From assembly GCF_001748225.1 (NCBI RefSeq), contig NZ_BDFE01000020.1:132138-196137 (forward strand): 64,000 nucleotides of DNA, in the 5' to 3' direction. Positions 36,563 to 45,312 of this stretch are shown here, in pieces (within the stretch, counting starts at the first letter, position 1; each line of letters opens with the position of its first letter). Origin of the DNA: Desulfoplanes formicivorans (GTDB lineage: Bacteria; Desulfobacterota; Desulfovibrionia; Desulfovibrionales; Desulfomicrobiaceae). The translations under genes were made by a program, and so were the position numbers. Below the pieces are notes generated by a model that ran no database searches, was not told the DNA's origin, and worked only from the letters and a program-made list of their open reading frames with translations.

Positions 36563-36777
36563 GGGATCATTGGGGAAGATATGCATTCAAGTACCCTAGA
36601 AAGACACCCGTTGACCGTCATATAGATCCAGGGCATATTCTCCGCTCTGACTTCCTGGAATCGTTGGGTAATTGCGAGTTGACGATTTGTCGTCCTGATG
36701 CTGATGAGCATTCCGCATTAACAGAAACAAGGCAACCTTTGTCTTTGCATTATATTTTCAAGAGGTGTGTCTTTTCC

Positions 36778-37449
36778 ATGAGAATATTTTTTTTGAGGCC
36801 GATTTGCTTGTCCTTTTGTACAATCTGCTTGGCCCCGCTTTTGAAAATCAGGGAGGACAAGGTATGCCTGTCGGTCCTGGCCTGTCTGTTTTGGGGAATG
36901 CCCTGTCCGGTTTCAGCCCATCCTCATGTGTATGTGGACGCCCGGGTGGATGTAATATTTGACGATGCGGGCCTGTCCGGTTTCAGGGTTACCTGGGTTT
37001 TTGATGAGATGTTCAGCAACATGATTGCCTTTGATTTTGATACCAACGGCAATGGCCGCTTCGATGCCGGGGAGGTGGAAGGGGTCAGGAAGGGGGCCTT
37101 TTCCAATCTTCGGGAATTCGGGTATTTCACCCGCATCCGCATCGGGGGGAAACCCTTTGCCGTGCAATTTGTAAAGGATTTTTCCGCTACCCTTCATGAT
37201 GGGGTCATGACCTATGCTTTTTTTATTCCCTGTCATGTGCGGGCTGCGGCTACTGTCAAGAAGATTCGGCTCTCCATGTACGATGACACATATTATACGG
37301 ACATAGCCCTTGCTTCGGACCCGGTGAAGATGGTGGGGGCGGAGCGGTTTGGTGCTGACTGGGAGGTCAAGGAGAACCCGGCCGACGCCTTTTATTACGG
37401 TCAGATTTTTCCCGAGGACATTATTATCACCTTCAAGGAACGCCCATGA
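36778..37449 (+). CDS. DUF1007 family periplasmic protein
   Basis: 223 residues from ATG 36778. An unusually long N-terminal region (about 50 residues, with hydrophobic stretches) ends in a cleavage-like VSA before HPHVYVDARVDV. That HPHV start is the mature N terminus of DUF1007 proteins. Other motifs are GFRVTWVFDEMFSNM, DTNGNGRFDAGEV (EF-hand-like) and the beta-rich FGADWEVKENP. The family accompanies NicO/RcnA metal transporters, and here the next gene is one, with a 4-base overlap. The role is probably periplasmic metal binding or delivery; the exact start is uncertain. Confidence 0.82.
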   Translation: MRIFFLRPICLSFCTICLAPLLKIREDKVCLSVLACLFWGMPCPVSAHPHVYVDARVDVIFDDAGLSGFRVTWVFDEMFSNMIAFDFDTNGNGRFDAGEVEGVRKGAFSNLREFGYFTRIRIGGKPFAVQFVKDFSATLHDGVMTYAFFIPCHVRAAATVKKIRLSMYDDTYYTDIALASDPVKMVGAERFGADWEVKENPADAFYYGQIFPEDIIITFKERP

Positions 37450-38342
37450 TCAGATTGTTCCTGGCGATTTTCCTTTTTCTGCTACTTGTGGGTGGTGCTG
37501 TCCCTGCCGGTGCAGGCAATCCCTTTCAGGGGGGGGAGCAAGGAACGGTTGTACGCCAATCCACAGAGAATTCCCCGGCCGCTGGTTTTTTTGTGCGCAT
37601 CGCCCAATACCAGCAGGAACTCAGGCAACGACTCGGCGGGTTGATCCGTGAGGCCCGGCAGGGGATCTCCCTGCGTCCTTTGATGCTCATTCTTGTGTTC
37701 GCTTTTGCCTATGGGATGGTGCACGCGGCCGGTCCGGGCCATGGCAAGGCCGTGGCCATGACCTATATTCTGTCCCAGAACGCCTCCATCGGCGGAGGCA
37801 TCCTTTTCGGTGTGTCCATCGCCCTGATTCATGGTTTTTCAGGGGCGATTTGCGTGCTGGGGCTGCACTACATCCTTGAACAAAGTGTCAGCGGGACCCT
37901 GGCTTCAGTAACCAGGACAACGCAGCTGGTCAGCTTCGGACTTATTACCCTGCTTGGAGTATGGATCGTATGTTCTCATCTGCGGGAATGCTTCCAACAA
38001 GTGGACGGGACCCACGGTAAAGACATGAAAAAGGGGAAGACGCGACTTCTGCCCTGGGCCTTGTCCGTGGGCATGGTTCCCTGTCCCGGGGTGGTCATGG
38101 TCATGCTTTTTTGTTTGTCTATGGGGGTATTTTCTTTGGGCCTCATGGCAGCCCTTGCCATTTCCCTGGGCATGGCCGTTACCATTTCACTGGTGGTGAT
38201 CTGCGTGGTTCTGGGGCGCACTGCGTGTGTAGGCAGCTTTTCGGCTCAGAGAGCCCGGCGGCTGGAACAGATCTTGGGAATGACTTCGGGGCTGGCTGTG
38301 GCCGTGTTGGGGTTTGTCTTTTTCCGGGCAGCCATGGTCTGA
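37446..38342 (+). CDS. NicO/RcnA-type nickel/cobalt transporter
   Basis: Inner-membrane metal efflux or transport protein, 298 residues. A signal-like first span (about 3-22) is followed by a periplasmic loop. The family motif HAAGPGHGKAVAMTYIL is near residue 95, with GVSIALIHGFSGAI following. PCPGVVMVMLFCL in the second half is also conserved. Six or seven spans are expected. It is coupled to the DUF1007 gene. Substrate is nickel or cobalt in characterised relatives; iron or manganese is possible given the neighbourhood. Confidence 0.88.
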   Translation: MIRLFLAIFLFLLLVGGAVPAGAGNPFQGGEQGTVVRQSTENSPAAGFFVRIAQYQQELRQRLGGLIREARQGISLRPLMLILVFAFAYGMVHAAGPGHGKAVAMTYILSQNASIGGGILFGVSIALIHGFSGAICVLGLHYILEQSVSGTLASVTRTTQLVSFGLITLLGVWIVCSHLRECFQQVDGTHGKDMKKGKTRLLPWALSVGMVPCPGVVMVMLFCLSMGVFSLGLMAALAISLGMAVTISLVVICVVLGRTACVGSFSAQRARRLEQILGMTSGLAVAVLGFVFFRAAMV

Positions 38343-38443: not shown

Positions 38444-40216
38444 TTATAGTTCCTTGTTTTTCAACCCCTGGGGCACATATTTTTTAACCACCATGGGCAG
38501 GAAAGCAAGAAGCACAAGAAGTCCTATGCCGGCAAGGCATTGGGTAGACCATTTGCCCTGGAGCAGATCAAACAGGGAACTGGACAAAAGGATGTAGGCC
38601 ACGCATCCGGGCAGCATGCAGATAAATGAGGTGAAAAAATAGGTGGAAAATTTGATCCTGGTGAGCCCGAGGGCATAGCTGAGCAGATTAAAGGGGAAAA
38701 GGGGCACAAGGCGGGTAAAAGCCACTATTTTCCATCCGTGCTGTTCTGTCTGCTGTTTGAGTTTCAGAAAACACGGGTTGGTCATTTTTTTTTCCACCCA
38801 GTCCGAGGCCACATACCTGGCCACCAGAAAGGCCAGACAGGCACCGGTTGTGGCACCGGTAATGCCGTAGACAACGCCCCATACCGGGCCGAAGATCACG
38901 CCGCCGGCAATGATGAACGGCGCTCCAGGCAGAAAAAAAGCCGGAGCAAGGGTGACCAGAAGAATAAAGGCCGCCGGAGCAAGGATTCCGAATTCCCCCA
39001 CAAGGCGATGGATGTTTTCCTGGGTGGCCAGTCCATCCACCCCGGCTATCCTTGCGCCCACAATGCCTGCAACAATGAACAGCAGCACAAGGAGCCTGGC
39101 CGGACTGATTCCTGACCTGGTGCAGGTATTGACCGGAAGTTCCTTTTCCAGGACGTCTTTCCGGTTGGAGCTGGTCAGCCTGGATTTGAGCCAGAGGCGT
39201 GCGAGATAGGTAAAGGGAGATACCGTGCTTTTCACCCGGTTGTTCATGGTTTGCTGCGGCTCAAAAAGAAGATCCAGCACATGGCTTGTGTTCATGGATT
39301 TTCCCAGAAATTCGCAACACCCGGCACAATAGGTAATCACCTTCCGGTTACCGGCCTCGGCTTTTCTCCTGCTCTGCCAGTTCAAGGCCAATGGGGGGGC
39401 AACCGGATACACCGTGCCTCCCTGGCCGCAGCAGATGGTTTTTTCACCGGAGTGGGGCATCTCATGGATTTCAAGGCCGGTTTTTCTAACCAACTGGCGC
39501 ACGCTGGCGTGGATGTCCTGGTTGCATCGGGTGCCGCAGGGGTCATGGATGGTCACCTGGCCGGTCAACACCCTGTCATCGGGCCAGGTTTCGGCCATGA
39601 GATCATAGGCTGAGCGAACGGCCAGTTTCTGTGCATAGGTTGCAAATATGCGGTAACAGTTGGGGCAGGCCGTGATGACTCCCTGGACCCCGTGTTGCTC
39701 CAGAAATTGTTCCTGGGATGAAAAATTTGATTGGAAGAAGGCTTTGCGGCCCAGATCGTGGGAGGGTTTGGCGCAGCAGTCCAGAACAATGCCCAGATTG
39801 GGCACCCGGGTTTTCAGCCATGCATAGACCTGCAGGGTTCTTTTGGCCCGGGTGCCGGCAAGGGCACATCCGGGCCAAAAGACCTGGGTACAATTCTTGG
39901 GTATGGTGTACAGGGAAAAACGTTTGGAGAGTCCTCTTTGTTCGTAGGCCATGATTTGTTTGTGCTCTGCGAACACCTTCTGGTTCTCTTCAAACACCAT
40001 TTGCCGCATGTGCAGAAATATCCCGGCCGGGTTGAGTCCCTTGGGACAGGTTGCAGCACAAAGGCCACAGAGGCTGCATTGAAAGGCGATCTCTTTGTCA
40101 AGAGATCCTTCCAGGACCTGCCGGACAATGTCCCCGGGATTGCCGTATTGTTGCAGAAAGAGGCAATTTTTGACGCAAAGATTGCATCCGGCACAGTCAT
40201 GGGCAAATGTTTCCAT
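38444..40216 (-). CDS. CCG-domain iron-sulfur protein fused to a TVP38/TMEM64 membrane domain
   Basis: 590 residues from ATG 40216; a TTG at 40234 with AGGA upstream is also possible. The N-terminal half (about 1-340) resembles GlpC/GlcF/HdrD-type proteins: two 4Fe-4S motifs, CAGCNLCVKNC and CSLCGLCAATCPKG, then two CCG modules (LDCCAKPSHDLG and ICCGQGGT). The C-terminal half (about 375-590) is a TVP38 (VTT) membrane domain with FFLPGAPFIIAGGVIFGPVWG and FTRLVPLFPFNLLSYALGLT. The fusion joins disulfide-type redox chemistry to a transport-like membrane domain. It directly follows the selenocysteine rhodanese on the same strand. Confidence 0.85.
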   Translation of the reverse strand: METFAHDCAGCNLCVKNCLFLQQYGNPGDIVRQVLEGSLDKEIAFQCSLCGLCAATCPKGLNPAGIFLHMRQMVFEENQKVFAEHKQIMAYEQRGLSKRFSLYTIPKNCTQVFWPGCALAGTRAKRTLQVYAWLKTRVPNLGIVLDCCAKPSHDLGRKAFFQSNFSSQEQFLEQHGVQGVITACPNCYRIFATYAQKLAVRSAYDLMAETWPDDRVLTGQVTIHDPCGTRCNQDIHASVRQLVRKTGLEIHEMPHSGEKTICCGQGGTVYPVAPPLALNWQSRRKAEAGNRKVITYCAGCCEFLGKSMNTSHVLDLLFEPQQTMNNRVKSTVSPFTYLARLWLKSRLTSSNRKDVLEKELPVNTCTRSGISPARLLVLLFIVAGIVGARIAGVDGLATQENIHRLVGEFGILAPAAFILLVTLAPAFFLPGAPFIIAGGVIFGPVWGVVYGITGATTGACLAFLVARYVASDWVEKKMTNPCFLKLKQQTEQHGWKIVAFTRLVPLFPFNLLSYALGLTRIKFSTYFFTSFICMLPGCVAYILLSSSLFDLLQGKWSTQCLAGIGLLVLLAFLPMVVKKYVPQGLKNKEL

Positions 40217-40242
40217 GGATTTTCGGGCAGACAAGAGGGGTC

Positions 40243-41220
40243 CTATTGGGGCTGATATTCCCCGGTTTCCATCGGCATGTTGGGATCTGCAGCCCACTCG
40301 TAAATGGATGCTTCGTAGTTTCTGACGTGCTCAAAGCCAACTGCTCTGAGGATCATGGATGTGAATCCAGATCTGATACCCATAGTTCAGTAGAGGACAA
40401 AATCATCTTCCGGGTGGATGCCCACCCCGGCCATGATCTGCTTGATCTCCTGGGCGGATTTGACGCCAGCATCAGGGGTGAGAAGTGCGGTCCATTCCAG
40501 CCATTTTGACCCTGCAATATGACCGCCCCTGGCCTCTCCCCTGGAGGTGTCCTCACCGGTATACTCCTTCAGGGATCTGACATCCACAATCTTGAGGGTG
40601 TCCAGGTTGTCATAAACATAGGCCTGGTCGGCCTGAAAGGATGTGTCGTAATCCTTGAGCACCAGTCCTGTGGCAGGGACCGGGGTGGTGCGGGTGGTGG
40701 AGAGGGGGTAGCCCTTTTGTTTCCACATGGCCAGCCCACCGTATAACAGCCGGGCATTTTCAAAGCCAGCCAGTTTCATCTGCCAGACGGCCCGGCCGCC
40801 GCCACCTGGGCCTTTGAAAATATCGGAATAGGCCACCACTGTTTTGGTATTGTCCACGCCCAGGGATTCAAGTTTTGCTTTAAGTTTTTCCTTGGGCAGA
40901 ATGGTTCCCCATCCCTTGTCGCCGGGTTTTCCGGTACAATCCGACAACCCCTTGAATCCAATGCTGATGGCTCCTGGAATATGTCCCTTGGCATAGCCTC
41001 TGGGATGGCTGGCATCCAGAATGACAATATCCTTGGAACCCAGTTTGGCGTAAAGCTCGTCCGGAGTGATAAAAATATCTCCCTGGGTCACAAATTCGGG
41101 AATTTCCACCGGGCCCGTTTGGTGGGGGGCATTGGAATCTCCCCATTTGGTTTTGGCCATAAAGGCCAGGAGTGCGGCAATGGCAACTCCTGCAATGAGC
41201 ATACACGTTTTTTTCTTCAA
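40243..41220 (-). CDS. Exported two-domain rhodanese (thiosulfate sulfurtransferase), predicted selenoprotein with in-frame TGA at codon 278
   Basis: Translation from TTG 41220 (AAAAGGAGG upstream) gives a signal/anchor (about 1-24), then rhodanese domain 1 (about 50-165, ILDASHPRGYAKGHIPGA, with Asp in place of Cys in AYSDIFKGPGGGGRAVWQ) and domain 2. The frame meets TGA at 40387-40389 after PEDDFVLY. Reading on gives TMGIRSGFTSMILRAVGFEH and then VRNYEASIYEWAADPNM, ending at TAG 40243-40245 (325 residues). In Cys homologues the catalytic loop is YCxxGxRS, so TGA occupies exactly the nucleophile position. Selenocysteine insertion is the simplest reading. A sequencing error or nonsense mutation is the alternative, but the downstream 47 codons stay conserved. 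Sulfur or selenium transfer in the periplasm is inferred. Confidence 0.85.
40351..40373 (-). promoter_or_regulatory. Candidate bacterial SECIS hairpin downstream of the TGA
   Basis: On the minus strand, 13 bases after the TGA, GATC-TGGAT-TCAC-ATCCA-T-GATC folds into a 9-bp stem with one bulged U and a 4-base loop. The loop starts 22 bases after the TGA, inside the range usual for bacterial SECIS elements (about 16-37). The bulged U fits; the loop UCAC lacks the G often found at its first positions, unless the top pairs open. The fold is predicted by eye. Confidence 0.5.
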
Positions 41221-41231
41221 AATGCCTCCTT

Positions 41232-41924
41232 TTAACTCTGAGTCTGAATCTTTTCTGTTTTGGGTCGGCTTGTTATTTTTTTCAATAAAATGGTCAAGAT
41301 GCTCAGGGCGAAGAGTATCAAAAGCCCCATGACAAATTTCTGGGTGCCGCCCACAAGCATTTCCCCTGCATAGGAATAGATCAGCGTGGCCGGAAGCTGT
41401 CCCAGTCCGGTGGCCCAGAAAAAGGGCCAGAAGCTCATGGACGTGAGACCTGCGGCATAGCTGACAATATCAAAGGAGATAAAGGGCAGCAGGCGGGCAA
41501 TGAGGATGGTGTACTGCCCATATTGTTTGAAAAAATCATCAATGCCCTCCAGGGCCAGCTTGGAGGTCATCCGTTCGACAAATCCTCTGCCAAGCCATTT
41601 GGCCAGGAAAAAGCAGAGGGCTGCACCGGCCATGGCGCTGGACCAGGAGAGGATGGCTCCCTTGATCCATCCGAACAGTGCCGCATTGGCAAAAGTAATC
41701 AAAAAGGCGGGCAAAGGGGCGATAACTGACTGGAAAAGCATGAGGCAAAAGGAGATCACAGGTGCCCAGATGCCGAAAGAAACAATGTAGCCCTTTATAT
41801 AGGCCACATCGTACATGCCAAAGAGGAAAAACAGCTGTTCAATGGTATCCCGAACGGGTTTGATGAGAAAACAGGCAAGAATGACAACCACAAGGCCACA
41901 AAGGGCTATGCGCATTTTTTTCAA
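41232..41924 (-). CDS. TVP38/TMEM64 (VTT domain) family membrane protein
   Basis: 230 residues. I start at TTG 41924 because AAGGAG lies 7 bases upstream; ATG 41915 is three codons inside. Six hydrophobic spans are visible. The VTT core has FQSVIAPLPAFLITFANAALFGW, then FFLAKWLGRGFVERM and IARLLPFISFDIVSYAAGLT. It is the first gene of the minus-strand operon; its stop lies 11 bases before the rhodanese start. The family is widely conserved and its transported molecule is not established. Confidence 0.9.
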   Translation of the reverse strand: MKKMRIALCGLVVVILACFLIKPVRDTIEQLFFLFGMYDVAYIKGYIVSFGIWAPVISFCLMLFQSVIAPLPAFLITFANAALFGWIKGAILSWSSAMAGAALCFFLAKWLGRGFVERMTSKLALEGIDDFFKQYGQYTILIARLLPFISFDIVSYAAGLTSMSFWPFFWATGLGQLPATLIYSYAGEMLVGGTQKFVMGLLILFALSILTILLKKITSRPKTEKIQTQS

Positions 41925-41938
41925 CAAAAGACTCCTTT

Positions 41939-41959
41939 TACAATTGGTTGCAAATTGTA
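41939..41959. promoter_or_regulatory. Palindromic operator candidate upstream of the TVP38 operon
   Basis: TACAATT (41939-41945) and AATTGTA (41953-41959) form a perfect 7-bp dyad with 7-base spacer, ending just before the AAGGAG site of the TVP38 gene. Such a site could repress the operon. The regulator is unknown. Confidence 0.5.
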
Positions 41960-42164
41960 GTCGTCTATTGAGGTTACAGGTTTTTTGTCCAGTTGATAAT
42001 TTCCATTGAAAACGCAGAAACGTATCGAGAATGTCGATAGCATGGGGTCGGTCCTGAACCGGTTTGTCCCGACTGCACCTGCCTTGCCGCCAGACGAGGA
42101 AAAAGGGGTCTGCAAATGGGCTTGCTTCAGTGAGTTGCGAAACATATCGGTTTCCCATGTGATT

Positions 42165-42242
42165 ACAAATTTGTGTCAAACAAGACGGCTGTACCAGATA
42201 TACGGGGTTGGCTGGTCCGTTGATTTTACAATTTGGTGTAAA
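42165..42242. promoter_or_regulatory. Two further palindromes in the divergent intergenic region
   Basis: ACAAATTTGT (42165-42174) is a perfect 10-bp palindrome. TTTACA-N6-TGTAAA (42225-42230 and 42237-42242) is a second dyad. Both share ACAA/TTGT elements with the dyad at 41939-41959. They lie between the TVP38 operon and the ABC transporter genes. Confidence 0.45.
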
Positions 42243-42788
42243 GTGTCCGGATGTTAAGTGTCTGTTGGTAGGAAAGCCAGTTTCAAAATTTTGAAGGGAA
42301 GGATGAATCGGTCTTTGGCTTGCGTTTTGCCTGTTGTTTTATTACGTTATAACCTTTTCGCCCATTCTTCCGGCCCTTGGAGTCATGCATCTGGACAACA
42401 TGATGATTTTCAAGGATAAAATCATCCTGGTTGCTGCAATGTACGGAATTGTGAAAGACATTGGGGAGGCGTTTCTCCCCGTGCAGGGCAGGGTCCATCT
42501 GTTCCGGCCAACAGGGACCATCTTTTGACCGGCCATGACGCATATCGCCGGGCTTCACGGGCTTGTGCTCGGGGTGTGCTCCATGGGGAGAGATGACCAC
42601 TGGTTTGCCTCCCTGTCTTGCACAATCCGGGCGCAACCAGAGCTGATAACAATGGTTTTCGGATGAATAGCCCGTGTGAAAGGTGATTGGCCGTGTCCCA
42701 TGGTTGGGTCGGAATGGTTGTTGCTTTGGTTCGTGGCTTGGCAGATCGTTTTTTCTCACCATGTTACCCCTCTCCCAAGGAGACGATA
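42243..42788 (+). other. Intergenic region before the ABC transporter operon
   Basis: About 545 bases without a supported gene. A perfect 14-bp palindrome, TTCAAAATTTTGAA, lies at 42282-42295. Open frames on both strands around 42283-42762 have no ribosome site and no recognisable family. An AAGGAGACGATA ribosome site precedes ATG 42789. Confidence 0.45.
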
Positions 42789-43760
42789 ATGAAAAAAATG
42801 CTCACCGCCGTTATGGCCGTTTGTTTGCTGGCTCTGCTTGCCGGACCGGCCTGGAGTGACGTGGAGCTCAAGGTGGCCCACGCAACCTGGGTTGGCTACG
42901 GCCCCCTGTATATTGCCAAGGAAAAGGGATTTTTTGCCCAACAGGGGCTGGACGTCCACCTGTTGATTATCGAGGACGAATCCCAGTACGCAGCAGCCAT
43001 GGCCTCGGGAAATATCGACGGCCTGGGCAATGTTCTGGATCGGGAGATCATCCACTTTGCCAAGGGGACCCCGGAAGTGGTCCTCTTTGCCATGGATGAG
43101 AGCACGGGAGGCGACGGCATTGTGGCTTCCCAAGAGATCAAAAGCCTGGAAGACCTCAAGGGAAAGAGCGTGGGGCTGGACAAGTCGTCCACATCGTACT
43201 TCTTCTTTTTGACCGCCTTGCAGAAGGCCGGGGTTCCTGAGGACAGTGTGACCATTCATGAAATGGGTGCCAGTGACGCAGGAGCCGCCTTTGTTGCCGG
43301 ACGTCTGGATGCCGCAGTGACATGGGAGCCCTGGCTGGCCAATGCAGGACAGCGTGAGGGCGGTCACGTTCTCGTCTCCAGCAGAGATCTTCCCAGCACC
43401 ATTCTGGACGTCTTTGTCCTGAGAAAGGACGTGCTGGACGCCCATCCCGAAGTGGGCCTCAAGCTGACCACCGCCTGGAACAAGGCTGTTGCCTGGTATG
43501 AGGAGCACCCCCAGGAGGGGATCGCCATCATGGCCAAGGCCATGGGCGTGAGCAGCGAGGAAATGGCTGACATGGCCTCGGGCGTAACCTTTTTCAATGC
43601 CGCGAAAAACAGAACGTTTTTTGATAAAACCAGTGAGAACAACATCTACGAGGTAGCAGCCAGGGCTGGAAAATTCTGGCAGGAGAAGAAAATCATCACC
43701 AGTCCTGTGGCCATTGATGAGCTGATCACCTCGCAATTTGTCAATCAGGCTGCGCAGTAA
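42789..43760 (+). CDS. ABC transporter substrate-binding protein, SsuA/TauA/NrtA (NMT1-like) family
   Basis: Periplasmic binding protein, 323 residues from ATG 42789. Signal peptide is about 1-23 (MKKMLTAVMAVCLLALLAG...AWSD). The mature start VELKVAHATWVGYGPLYIAKEKGFF is typical of the nitrate/sulfonate/taurine group. Later motifs are LKGKSVGLDKSSTSYFFFLTAL, FVAGRLDAAVTWEPWL and LRKDVLDAHPEVGLKLT. Ligand is not readable. Its position opposite a sulfurtransferase operon makes a sulfur-containing anion or organosulfur compound plausible (inference). Confidence 0.9.
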   Translation: MKKMLTAVMAVCLLALLAGPAWSDVELKVAHATWVGYGPLYIAKEKGFFAQQGLDVHLLIIEDESQYAAAMASGNIDGLGNVLDREIIHFAKGTPEVVLFAMDESTGGDGIVASQEIKSLEDLKGKSVGLDKSSTSYFFFLTALQKAGVPEDSVTIHEMGASDAGAAFVAGRLDAAVTWEPWLANAGQREGGHVLVSSRDLPSTILDVFVLRKDVLDAHPEVGLKLTTAWNKAVAWYEEHPQEGIAIMAKAMGVSSEEMADMASGVTFFNAAKNRTFFDKTSENNIYEVAARAGKFWQEKKIITSPVAIDELITSQFVNQAAQ

Positions 43761-44554
43761 TGGCTCGGTCCATGGTTCATGTGGTGCGATGGGTCACAGG
43801 GCCCGTCGCCCTTTCTCTTCTTTCTTTCGGGATGATCCTTGCCCTATGGGCGGGTCTCTCCTGGACGGGCATGGTCAAACCCCTTTTTCTACCCCGGCCC
43901 GAAGCCGTGCTTTCGGCCTTTGTTGCCATGCACCGGGAGGGCATTCTGTGGTCGTACACGTGGGCATCCACCTACAGGGTCATGGTGGGCTGGTCCCTGG
44001 CGGTTGTGGCGGCCCTTCCCCTGGGGGTGCTCATTGCCTCCTCCAAACGGGCCGCAGGTTTTTTGTCCCCCCTGTTCGAGTTCTCCAGATACCTTCCTGT
44101 TGTCGCCCTGGTTCCCCTCACCCTGCTTTACTTTGGTATCGGGGATGGTCAGAAGTTCATGGTCATCTTTCTGGGTACTTTTTTTCAACTCGTCCTCATG
44201 GTGGCGGACTCCGTGGCCAATGTTCCCAGGGATCTCATCAGGGCATCGGCTACCCTGGGAGCGAACACCTGGCAGACGTACAGGCTGGTTCTCCTTCCGG
44301 GGGCTCTTCCCGGCATCATGGATGATCTGCGCATCACCATCGGCTGGGCATGGACCTACCTTGTGGTGGCTGAACTCATCGCGGCCAACTCAGGACTCGG
44401 GTACATGATCCTGCGGGCCCAGAGGTTTCTGGCCATTGACCGGATATTTGCCGGGCTCATCATCATTGGCCTGCTGGGGTTGGGCACCGACTATCTGTTC
44501 AAATGGCTTACCCGGGTGAGCGTTCCATGGTCTGAAAAAACGGCAGGGAGATAA
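43760..44554 (+). CDS. ABC transporter permease, SsuC/TauC family
   Basis: 264 residues, six spans. ATG 43760 overlaps the stop of the binding-protein gene (TAA 43758-43760). The EAA loop is [42 protein letters not shown], the diagnostic permease motif. The C-terminal [21 protein letters not shown] is also typical. It forms the channel for the importer encoded by the flanking genes. Confidence 0.93.
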
Positions 44555-44556
44555 GG

Positions 44557-45312
44557 ATGCTCGAGATTGTCAATCTGACCAAGACCTATGGGACAGGGGA
44601 GAATACGGTCACAGCCGTGGACAAGGTGAACATGCACGTGGCCAAGGGCGAGCTGGCTGTGGTGGTTGGTCCCAGCGGGTGCGGCAAATCGACCCTGCTC
44701 AATATTGTTGCCGGACTTGAGCCGCGCACATCCGGTGAGGCCCGGATCATGGGCAGGGATATCCAGGGACCAGGAGCCGACCGGGGCATGGTGTTTCAGT
44801 CTTACACGCTGTTTCCCTGGCTCACTGTGCAGCAGAATGTGGAGTTCGGCCTGCGCATCAAAAAAATGCCTGCTGCACAACGGGCGGAAATCGCCCGCCA
44901 TTATGTGAAGCTGGTTGGTCTTGAAGGCAGGGAAAAGGCTCTTCCCAAAGAACTCTCGGGCGGGATGAAGCAGCGGGTGGCCATTGCCCGTGTTCTTGCC
45001 AACAAGCCCGAGATGCTGCTCATGGACGAACCCTTTGGAGCCCTGGACGCCCAGACGCGATTACTTTGTCAGGACCTCCTGCTGGACGTCTGGCGTGACG
45101 AGCGGCCCACTATCCTCTTTATCACCCACGACATTGACGAGGCCATCCTTCTGGCGGACACGGTATCCATCATGTCCCGCAGACCCGGAAGGATCATCGA
45201 GAAGATTCCCATTCCCATTGAGAGACCGCGCAACCACAGAACCATGCTTGAAAAGGAATTCACGGACATGAAAAAAACCATCATGGAAACCCTGTGGCAT
45301 GAAATCGGATGA
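44557..45312 (+). CDS. ABC transporter ATP-binding protein, SsuB/TauB family
   Basis: 251 residues, 2 bases after the permease stop. Walker A is [12 protein letters not shown], the Q-loop is [18 protein letters not shown], the signature is [16 protein letters not shown], Walker B is [16 protein letters not shown], and the H-loop is [15 protein letters not shown]. All catalytic elements are intact. It is the last gene of the transporter operon; no clear terminator was found in the 190 bases that follow. Confidence 0.95.

Follow-up and report, generated by a model that had tools for sequence, protein, structure and literature searches.

What is the function of three adjacent minus-strand genes of Desulfoplanes formicivorans that encode a TVP38 membrane protein, a rhodanese with a predicted selenocysteine (Sec) and an iron-sulfur protein fused to a second TVP38 domain? 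The genes lie in a stretch of 64,000 nucleotides (nt) of contig NZ_BDFE01000020.1, here called the window. TVP38/VTT proteins are relatives of eukaryotic TMEM41B and VMP1. The reading preferred here, with a probability of roughly 0.35, is that the trio forms one functional unit, an envelope sulfane-sulfur or thiol-redox module and a variant of the Escherichia coli ydjXYZ-ynjE set. An earlier interpretation, the sequence-only reading, had joined the trio to a divergent SsuABC-type importer in a pathway for uptake of a sulfur or selenium compound.

All the parts listed in that interpretation (two TVP38 domains, a rhodanese read as exported, a CCG protein and the importer, in one divergent region) are recognised by Pfam (Table 1). 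TVP38a matches VTT_dom (E 1.9e-28), and the rhodanese matches the Rhodanese family in two stretches (E 4.7e-30). Its N-terminus has a single hydrophobic segment, from which export or membrane anchoring is predicted. The proposed fusion of two parts also holds, with CCG and TVP38b in one frame of 590 amino acids (aa): a 4Fe-4S dicluster and two CCG motifs (HdrC/HdrB-like) are followed by a VTT domain at about residues 370-590. The start is most likely ATG 40216, rather than GTG 40297, which overlaps the rhodanese gene. Intergenic gaps within the trio (41924-38444) are 11 and 26 nt.

The in-frame TGA of the rhodanese gene is codon 278, and reading continues to TAG 40245-40243, giving 325 aa. All five genomes that bear the trio have the TGA at this codon. 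In an alignment with nine homologues, YnjE among them, it falls where all nine have the catalytic Cys of the second rhodanese domain. Past the TGA, the window and locus L253 differ at 6, 4 and 20 sites in codon positions 1, 2 and 3 over 47 codons. The genome itself contains a tRNA-Sec (82.4 bits) and, on contig C17, homologues of SelA, SelB and SelD. Together, the invariance, the third-position bias, the alignment with Cys and the Sec machinery argue that read-through is more than chance. The candidate Sec insertion sequence (SECIS) hairpin has 95.6% of cells paired across five sequences, with one compensatory pair. Since 96 of 500 shuffles pair as well and the z-scores from folding are close to zero, the hairpin is weak evidence alone, and it was dropped as stand-alone proof.

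Selenoprotein rhodaneses with a UxxG motif (PF00581/COG2897 forms) have been listed (PMC13188914, PMC9312934), and like the window protein they have Sec in place of the catalytic Cys in a rhodanese domain; the accessible tables in these sources give family and motif only and do not mention a TVP38 operon. Rhodanese relatives that adjoin CCG/TVP38 genes have ordinary Cys. This occurrence of plain Cys in the same gene context suggests that Sec is the catalytic residue here and not the sign of a selenium substrate. Selenium uptake deduced from the Sec codon, and with it a selenium compound as the imported substrate, was rejected on these grounds. Loci L106-L110 (genomes G504, G303, G584, G432 and G404) have another type of rhodanese with a TGA, 34-36% identical to that of the window, in a cluster where MoaD/ThiS-like, ThiF/HesA-like and JAMM-like genes were seen by eye.

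The gene neighbourhoods of the seleno-rhodanese, which the sequence-only reading had proposed to survey, reveal a conserved association of TVP38, CCG and rhodanese. Within the class, relatives of the rhodanese with 28-30% identity and no TGA are present in 6 other genomes of 297, and there is no match in one genome of the same genus (77% complete). In the family of BB40 (locus L126), 26 of 86 genomes match the rhodanese at E 1e-20, and four of these have a TGA within the gene (72, 71, 68 and 56% identity). TVP38a adjoins the rhodanese in all four of these loci (L126, L127, L253 and L254); CCG-TVP38b is next in the first three and divergent in L254. The trio with its TGA at the same codon is thus found in five genomes, the window's included. 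In two different genomes a 341-aa protein with no Pfam match lies near the trio (L254:3284-4309 and L258:13476-14501), and the N-termini of the two resemble each other closely.

Table 1. Features of the locus (window coordinates).
Feature	Position	Strand	Remarks
TVP38a, VTT-domain membrane protein, YdjZ-like, 230 aa	41232..41924	-	TTG start 41924, preceded by AAAGGAG
Tandem-domain rhodanese, predicted selenoprotein, 325 aa	40243..41220	-	Pfam, read-through translation
In-frame TGA (Sec codon)	40387..40389	-	catalytic-Cys position of second rhodanese domain, FVLY-U-TMGIRSG
Hairpin, candidate bacterial SECIS	40351..40373	-	begins 13 nt past TGA; 9 pairs, one bulged U
CCG-TVP38b fusion, 590 aa	38444..40216	-	Pfam: Fer4_17/Fer4_8 + CCG + VTT_dom
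15-nt site TTATCAACTGGACAA (TTATCAANTGGACAA), candidate regulator-binding site	41985..41999	-	60 nt before TVP38a start
Perfect palindrome ACAATT-N7-AATTGT	41940..41958		just before TVP38a ribosome-binding site
SsuA/NMT1-type substrate-binding protein, neighbouring importer	42789..43760	+	NMT1 Pfam match
SsuC/TauC-type permease, neighbouring importer	43760..44554	+	BPD_transp_1 Pfam match
SsuB/TauB/SaoA-type ATPase, neighbouring importer	44557..45312	+	ABC_tran Pfam match

The gene order in E. coli (NC_000913.3, b1750-b1757) is ydjX-ydjY-ydjZ-ynjA-B-C-D-E, and selD does lie nearby, as had been said, starting 6.2 kb past ynjE. A parallel to ydjXYZ-ynjBCDE had been suggested. For ydjXYZ-ynjE it is real and stronger than claimed, since TVP38a and YdjZ share 55% identity across 207 aa (215 bits; YdjX reaches 69 bits), and the rhodanese and YnjE share 30% across 274 aa. 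The identity of TVP38a to YdjZ is 52-57% in three of the other Sec cassettes and 40% in L254. TVP38b is closer to YdjX (32%, 100 bits) than to YdjZ (76 bits), with a smaller margin in relatives (87 versus 81 bits in L126). Other solved rhodaneses outscore YnjE as matches to the window rhodanese (1e0c, 125 bits; YnjE, 75 bits). The parallel fails for the importer: neither SsuA nor SsuC matches YnjB or YnjC significantly, and only the ATPase has a counterpart match, to YnjD, as ABC ATPases do.

The two sets share a YdjZ-type TVP38, a second TVP38, a tandem-type rhodanese and an iron-sulfur or ferredoxin-like partner. The trio differs in that YdjY is absent, with the fused HdrD-like iron-sulfur module in its place, in that its rhodanese has Sec where the longer YnjE (435 aa) has Cys, and in that the window importer is unrelated to YnjBC and is not conserved with the operon. 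YdjY (NF040466) has no match in the genome, and no member of the CMD family (YnjA, AhpD-like) is present among the 10 Pfam-scanned open reading frames around the operon, YnjA not having been sought genome-wide. On these comparisons the trio looks like a variant of the ydjXYZ-ynjE kind, which is known but uncharacterised; no assigned function for ydjXYZ was found in the open-access literature searched. In the accessible text of PMC3688515, ydjXYZ-ynjABCD and ynjE are both listed as directly FNR-activated, which fits an anaerobic redox role.

Profile and fold searches indicate that the iron-sulfur half of the fusion resembles HdrC/HdrB, EtfD and LutA. It contains two 4Fe-4S motifs and two CCG motifs (HdrD-like), and 19 Cys of iron-sulfur type are invariant in all 11 fusion sequences. 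The combination of a 4Fe-4S dicluster with two CCG motifs is that of HdrD/HdrBC, DsrK, EtfD and LutA; unlike these, the iron-sulfur part is here fused to a VTT domain, and no heme or quinone module is recognised. Other VTT proteins are tied to thiol or sulfur enzymes, COG0398 by fusion to a pyridine nucleotide-disulfide oxidoreductase and COG0586 by fusion to rhodanese (PMC10127716, PMC12893004); a CCG-TVP38 fusion is not mentioned beside these in the accessible text of the two sources. Open-access literature on the CCG-TVP38 fusion or this seleno-rhodanese operon was likewise not found.

The wider family of the fusion was represented by the best 80 of 266 stretches from a search of named genomes; 26 of these 80 loci have less than 8 kb of flank. 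The profiles used to recognise neighbours derive from proteins of such loci, those of the window among them. CCG and TVP38 are in one frame in 80 of 81 loci, counting the window. Within 5 kb of the fusion, a tandem rhodanese is present in 25 of the 80 loci, YdjY in 32, ArsS in 12 and any of these in 60; neither rhodanese nor YdjY is present at 20 control importer loci. These clusters of Desulfobacterota and Nitrospirota share the fusion with the window, often beside rhodanese or YdjY, and differ in that many lineages carry glycosyltransferases, ArsS or outer-membrane proteins. In a tree of 80 rows (L202 left out), the window fusion groups with L126 and L127 only, with support of 100. The rhodanese label requires at least 8 changes on this tree, 5 of them forced by starred branches, which indicates that its association with the fusion recurred. 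Fusions in the reverse order, TVP38-CCG, also lie beside rhodanese genes (L255:5853-7886, L258:10386-12296 and L120:6633-8504). A further CCG-TVP38 fusion, L058:9004-11499, has about 200 extra residues that look membrane-spanning and have no BLAST similarity to TVP38.

The 15-nt site upstream of TVP38a also occurs in rhodanese/CCG-TVP38 clusters of other Desulfobacterales. The motif TTATCAA-N-TGGACAA is 60, 71 and 66 nt before TVP38a in the window, L126 and L127. A scan of 151 loci (2.31 Mb) finds 4 exact copies (window, L126, L127 and L262) and 5 with one mismatch (L166, L173, L179, L253 and L261), in nine clusters of the same kind, while 60 permuted patterns give means of 0.00 exact and 0.55 one-mismatch copies, with maxima of 0 and 4. 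The loci scanned are mostly cluster loci, so that the evidence lies in this count and not in where the sites fall. The copies precede TVP38a in the window, L126, L127 and L253 and the fusion in L166; in L173, L261 and L262 they precede rhodanese genes or lie between them and a divergent glycosyltransferase, and the copy in L179 precedes a glycosyltransferase. Because the site is common to the cassette and the larger clusters, it suggests that one regulator may serve both. A search for a regulon within the genome gave no second exact copy in the window or in contigs C15 and C17 (1.19 of 3.0 Mb), and the sole one-mismatch copy on these contigs is C15:75033, in L267. The palindrome has a one-mismatch copy at 42228-42246, 288 nt away. 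The upstream regions of relatives did not show it, and two other contigs of the genome, 1.19 Mb together, contain no perfect copy. A promoter and terminator scan of the locus gave a result near chance.

These features suggest how a sulfane-sulfur or thiol-redox module could be arranged. The tandem rhodanese, exported and placed at the outer face of the inner membrane, would bind its cargo, sulfane sulfur or a different soft thiophile, to its catalytic Sec as a Se-S adduct. The two TVP38 proteins, one YdjZ-type and one fused, would provide the membrane step for a small thiol, a persulfide or a lipid-bound species. The HdrD-like module on TVP38b, on the cytoplasmic side, would reduce or open a disulfide, persulfide or trisulfide. 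Excerpts from the literature describe rhodanese alongside Hdr-like proteins in sulfur oxidisers. The topology, the direction, the substrate and a TVP38 that transports rather than scrambles lipids are all putative. Chalcogen transfer and disulfide reduction, which the sequence-only reading had held plausible, remain so as far as sulfur transfer is concerned; import of the compound by the ABC transporter does not. A more specific version, in which TVP38/VTT is the membrane step of a persulfide relay that a periplasmic selenosulfurtransferase loads and the fused Hdr-type reductase unloads, and in which E. coli ydjXYZ-ynjE is the same machine, its periplasmic partners there being YdjY and YnjE, is speculative and on balance doubtful.

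Several observations weigh against a sulfur or thiol module. Alignments show no conserved Cys pair in the VTT half, so that a route for sulfur or electrons across the membrane is not indicated. The glycosyltransferases and ArsS of the larger clusters are unexplained by a pure sulfur relay. In its accessible text, PMC10127716 discusses this VTT subfamily as related to lipid-handling eukaryotic proteins. Seventeen of the 81 fusions, partly on short contigs, have neither rhodanese, YdjY nor ArsS within 5 kb.

The glycosyltransferase and ArsS neighbourhoods make lipid or glycan handling the main rival. On this view the species that TVP38 scrambles or flips would be a lipid or a sugar linked to a polyprenyl carrier. 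Modification of this envelope glycoconjugate, a sugar or lipid that bears sulfur or arsenic, would fall to the rhodanese and the HdrD-like module, and the trio would be a reduced form of the larger clusters. Those clusters hold several glycosyltransferases (cellulose-synthase-like, polyprenyl-phosphate-hexose-synthase-like, TIGR04283 and TIGR04282), a predicted outer-membrane protein and an orphan protein of 460-485 aa. ArsS (TIGR04167) and an arsenosugar-associated peroxidase accompany some fusions. By NCBIfam, L060 is an arsenosugar cluster (ArsS 412 bits, cut-off 300; YdjY 146, cut-off 50), with TIGR04169, TIGR04282 and TIGR04283 also over their cut-offs. An NCBIfam rhodanese subfamily is named rhoda_near_glyco, and at L173, L179, L261 and L262 the 15-nt site also precedes glycosyltransferase genes. 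No such genes are present beside the window operon or the four other Sec cassettes, however, and E. coli ydjXYZ-ynjE has no glycosyltransferase. The best ArsS match in the genome is 39.7 bits, against a cut-off of 300, and membership of the window in an arsenosugar cluster was rejected for this reason. For flippases of undecaprenyl phosphate in the DedA family (COG0586), the accessible text of PMC10127716 gives acidic residues in the first re-entrant helix as a criterion. By eye, Asp and Glu are absent from the stretches around the presumed re-entrant element (APLPAFLITFANAALFG; FLPGAPFIIAGGVIFGP), whose placement is tentative, the predicted structure of the VTT half having a predicted local distance difference test score below 50. 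Lipid or glycan handling is a possible account of the trio, though an unlikely one.

In a DsbD-like relay, electrons would leave the HdrD-like module, pass by way of TVP38b and reach a thiol partner in the periplasm, either rhodanese or YdjY, a Cys-motif protein, according to lineage. The two do alternate near the fusion: with the window added and a lower YdjY threshold, a tandem rhodanese is present within 5 kb in 26 of 81 loci, YdjY in 33 and both in none (hypergeometric 2.4e-8, uncorrected for kinship). Clade structure accounts for part of this exclusivity, which was rejected as proof because it is not significant on independent tree pairs. Single-domain rhodanese and YdjY, moreover, occur together in 10 of the 81 loci, and the missing Cys pair tells against a relay through the VTT domain. 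Residue C538 is conserved throughout the 11 rows of one alignment (A5), but some rows of another (A1) have T or V there. Such a relay seems rather improbable.

Metalloid handling, in which the trio would detoxify or traffic oxyanions of arsenic, selenium or tellurium through thiol or selenol adducts, is decidedly unlikely. ArsS lies near a subset of fusions, and a DedA protein is tied to selenite resistance by the title of a reference cited in PMC3836016 and PMC10127716, as far as their accessible text goes. Between the rhodanese and ExtH, a protein of the cluster for selenite/tellurite reduction, there is a weak match of 36 bits, well below the cut-off of 200. No cytochromes or ExtI are recognised among the scanned neighbours, and the absence of an ArsS above cut-off in the genome counts against this account as well.

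The neighbouring importer is under all NCBIfam cut-offs for Ssu, Tau and Sao (SsuA_fam 158.7/163.5; SaoX 82.7/300; TauC 153.7/342; SaoA 251.4/360). About 0.86 kb separates its start codon from that of TVP38a, with no convincing gene inside. Of the 297 genomes of the order, 27 have SsuA orthologues, the window's own genome included; in the others the best match has 58-79% identity. Rhodanese or TVP38 was found at none of 20 such loci; a CCG match, weak at 42 bits, was found at one (L231). Two operon-bearing genomes, BB40 and Glo_11, have no SsuA match genome-wide at E 1e-10. These two results argue for an importer that is a module of its own, shared by many genomes, and that adjoins the trio here by happenstance. 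In the same-genus genome (77% complete) it lies beside other genes, and no SsuABC-type match is present within the flanks examined at the four other Sec loci (short in L127 and L254). As a partner of the trio and a component of its system, the importer was rejected, being absent beside the operon in 4 of 5 genomes, with the operon absent at 20 of 20 importer loci. In favour of the uptake pathway of the sequence-only reading are the divergent arrangement in the window and SsuB/SsuC-type matches no more than 5 kb from the fusion at three of the 80 loci (L151, L188 and L199). In two of these, the Desulfobulbaceae loci L151 and L188, SsuABC-type genes of low similarity (SsuA profile 35 and 41 bits) are divergent from rhodanese-CCG-TVP38, which tells against an independent importer. 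On the evidence above the pathway is very improbable, its SsuA-type protein also being below every NCBIfam cut-off and the SsuA profile below 50 bits in both of these loci. On the opposite strand just past the end of the operon (36664-38342) are genes for a DUF1007 protein and a NicO-type nickel/cobalt transporter.

TVP38-type (COG0398) proteins are widespread, and their bacterial function is still to be assigned. The trio ties TVP38 to a predicted sulfur-transfer selenoenzyme and an Hdr-type reductase, and together with fusions in both orders and a common upstream site this offers a concrete biochemical hypothesis. That hypothesis may be addressed in E. coli K-12, where ydjXYZ-ynjE exists and, according to the accessible text of PMC3688515, is FNR-activated.

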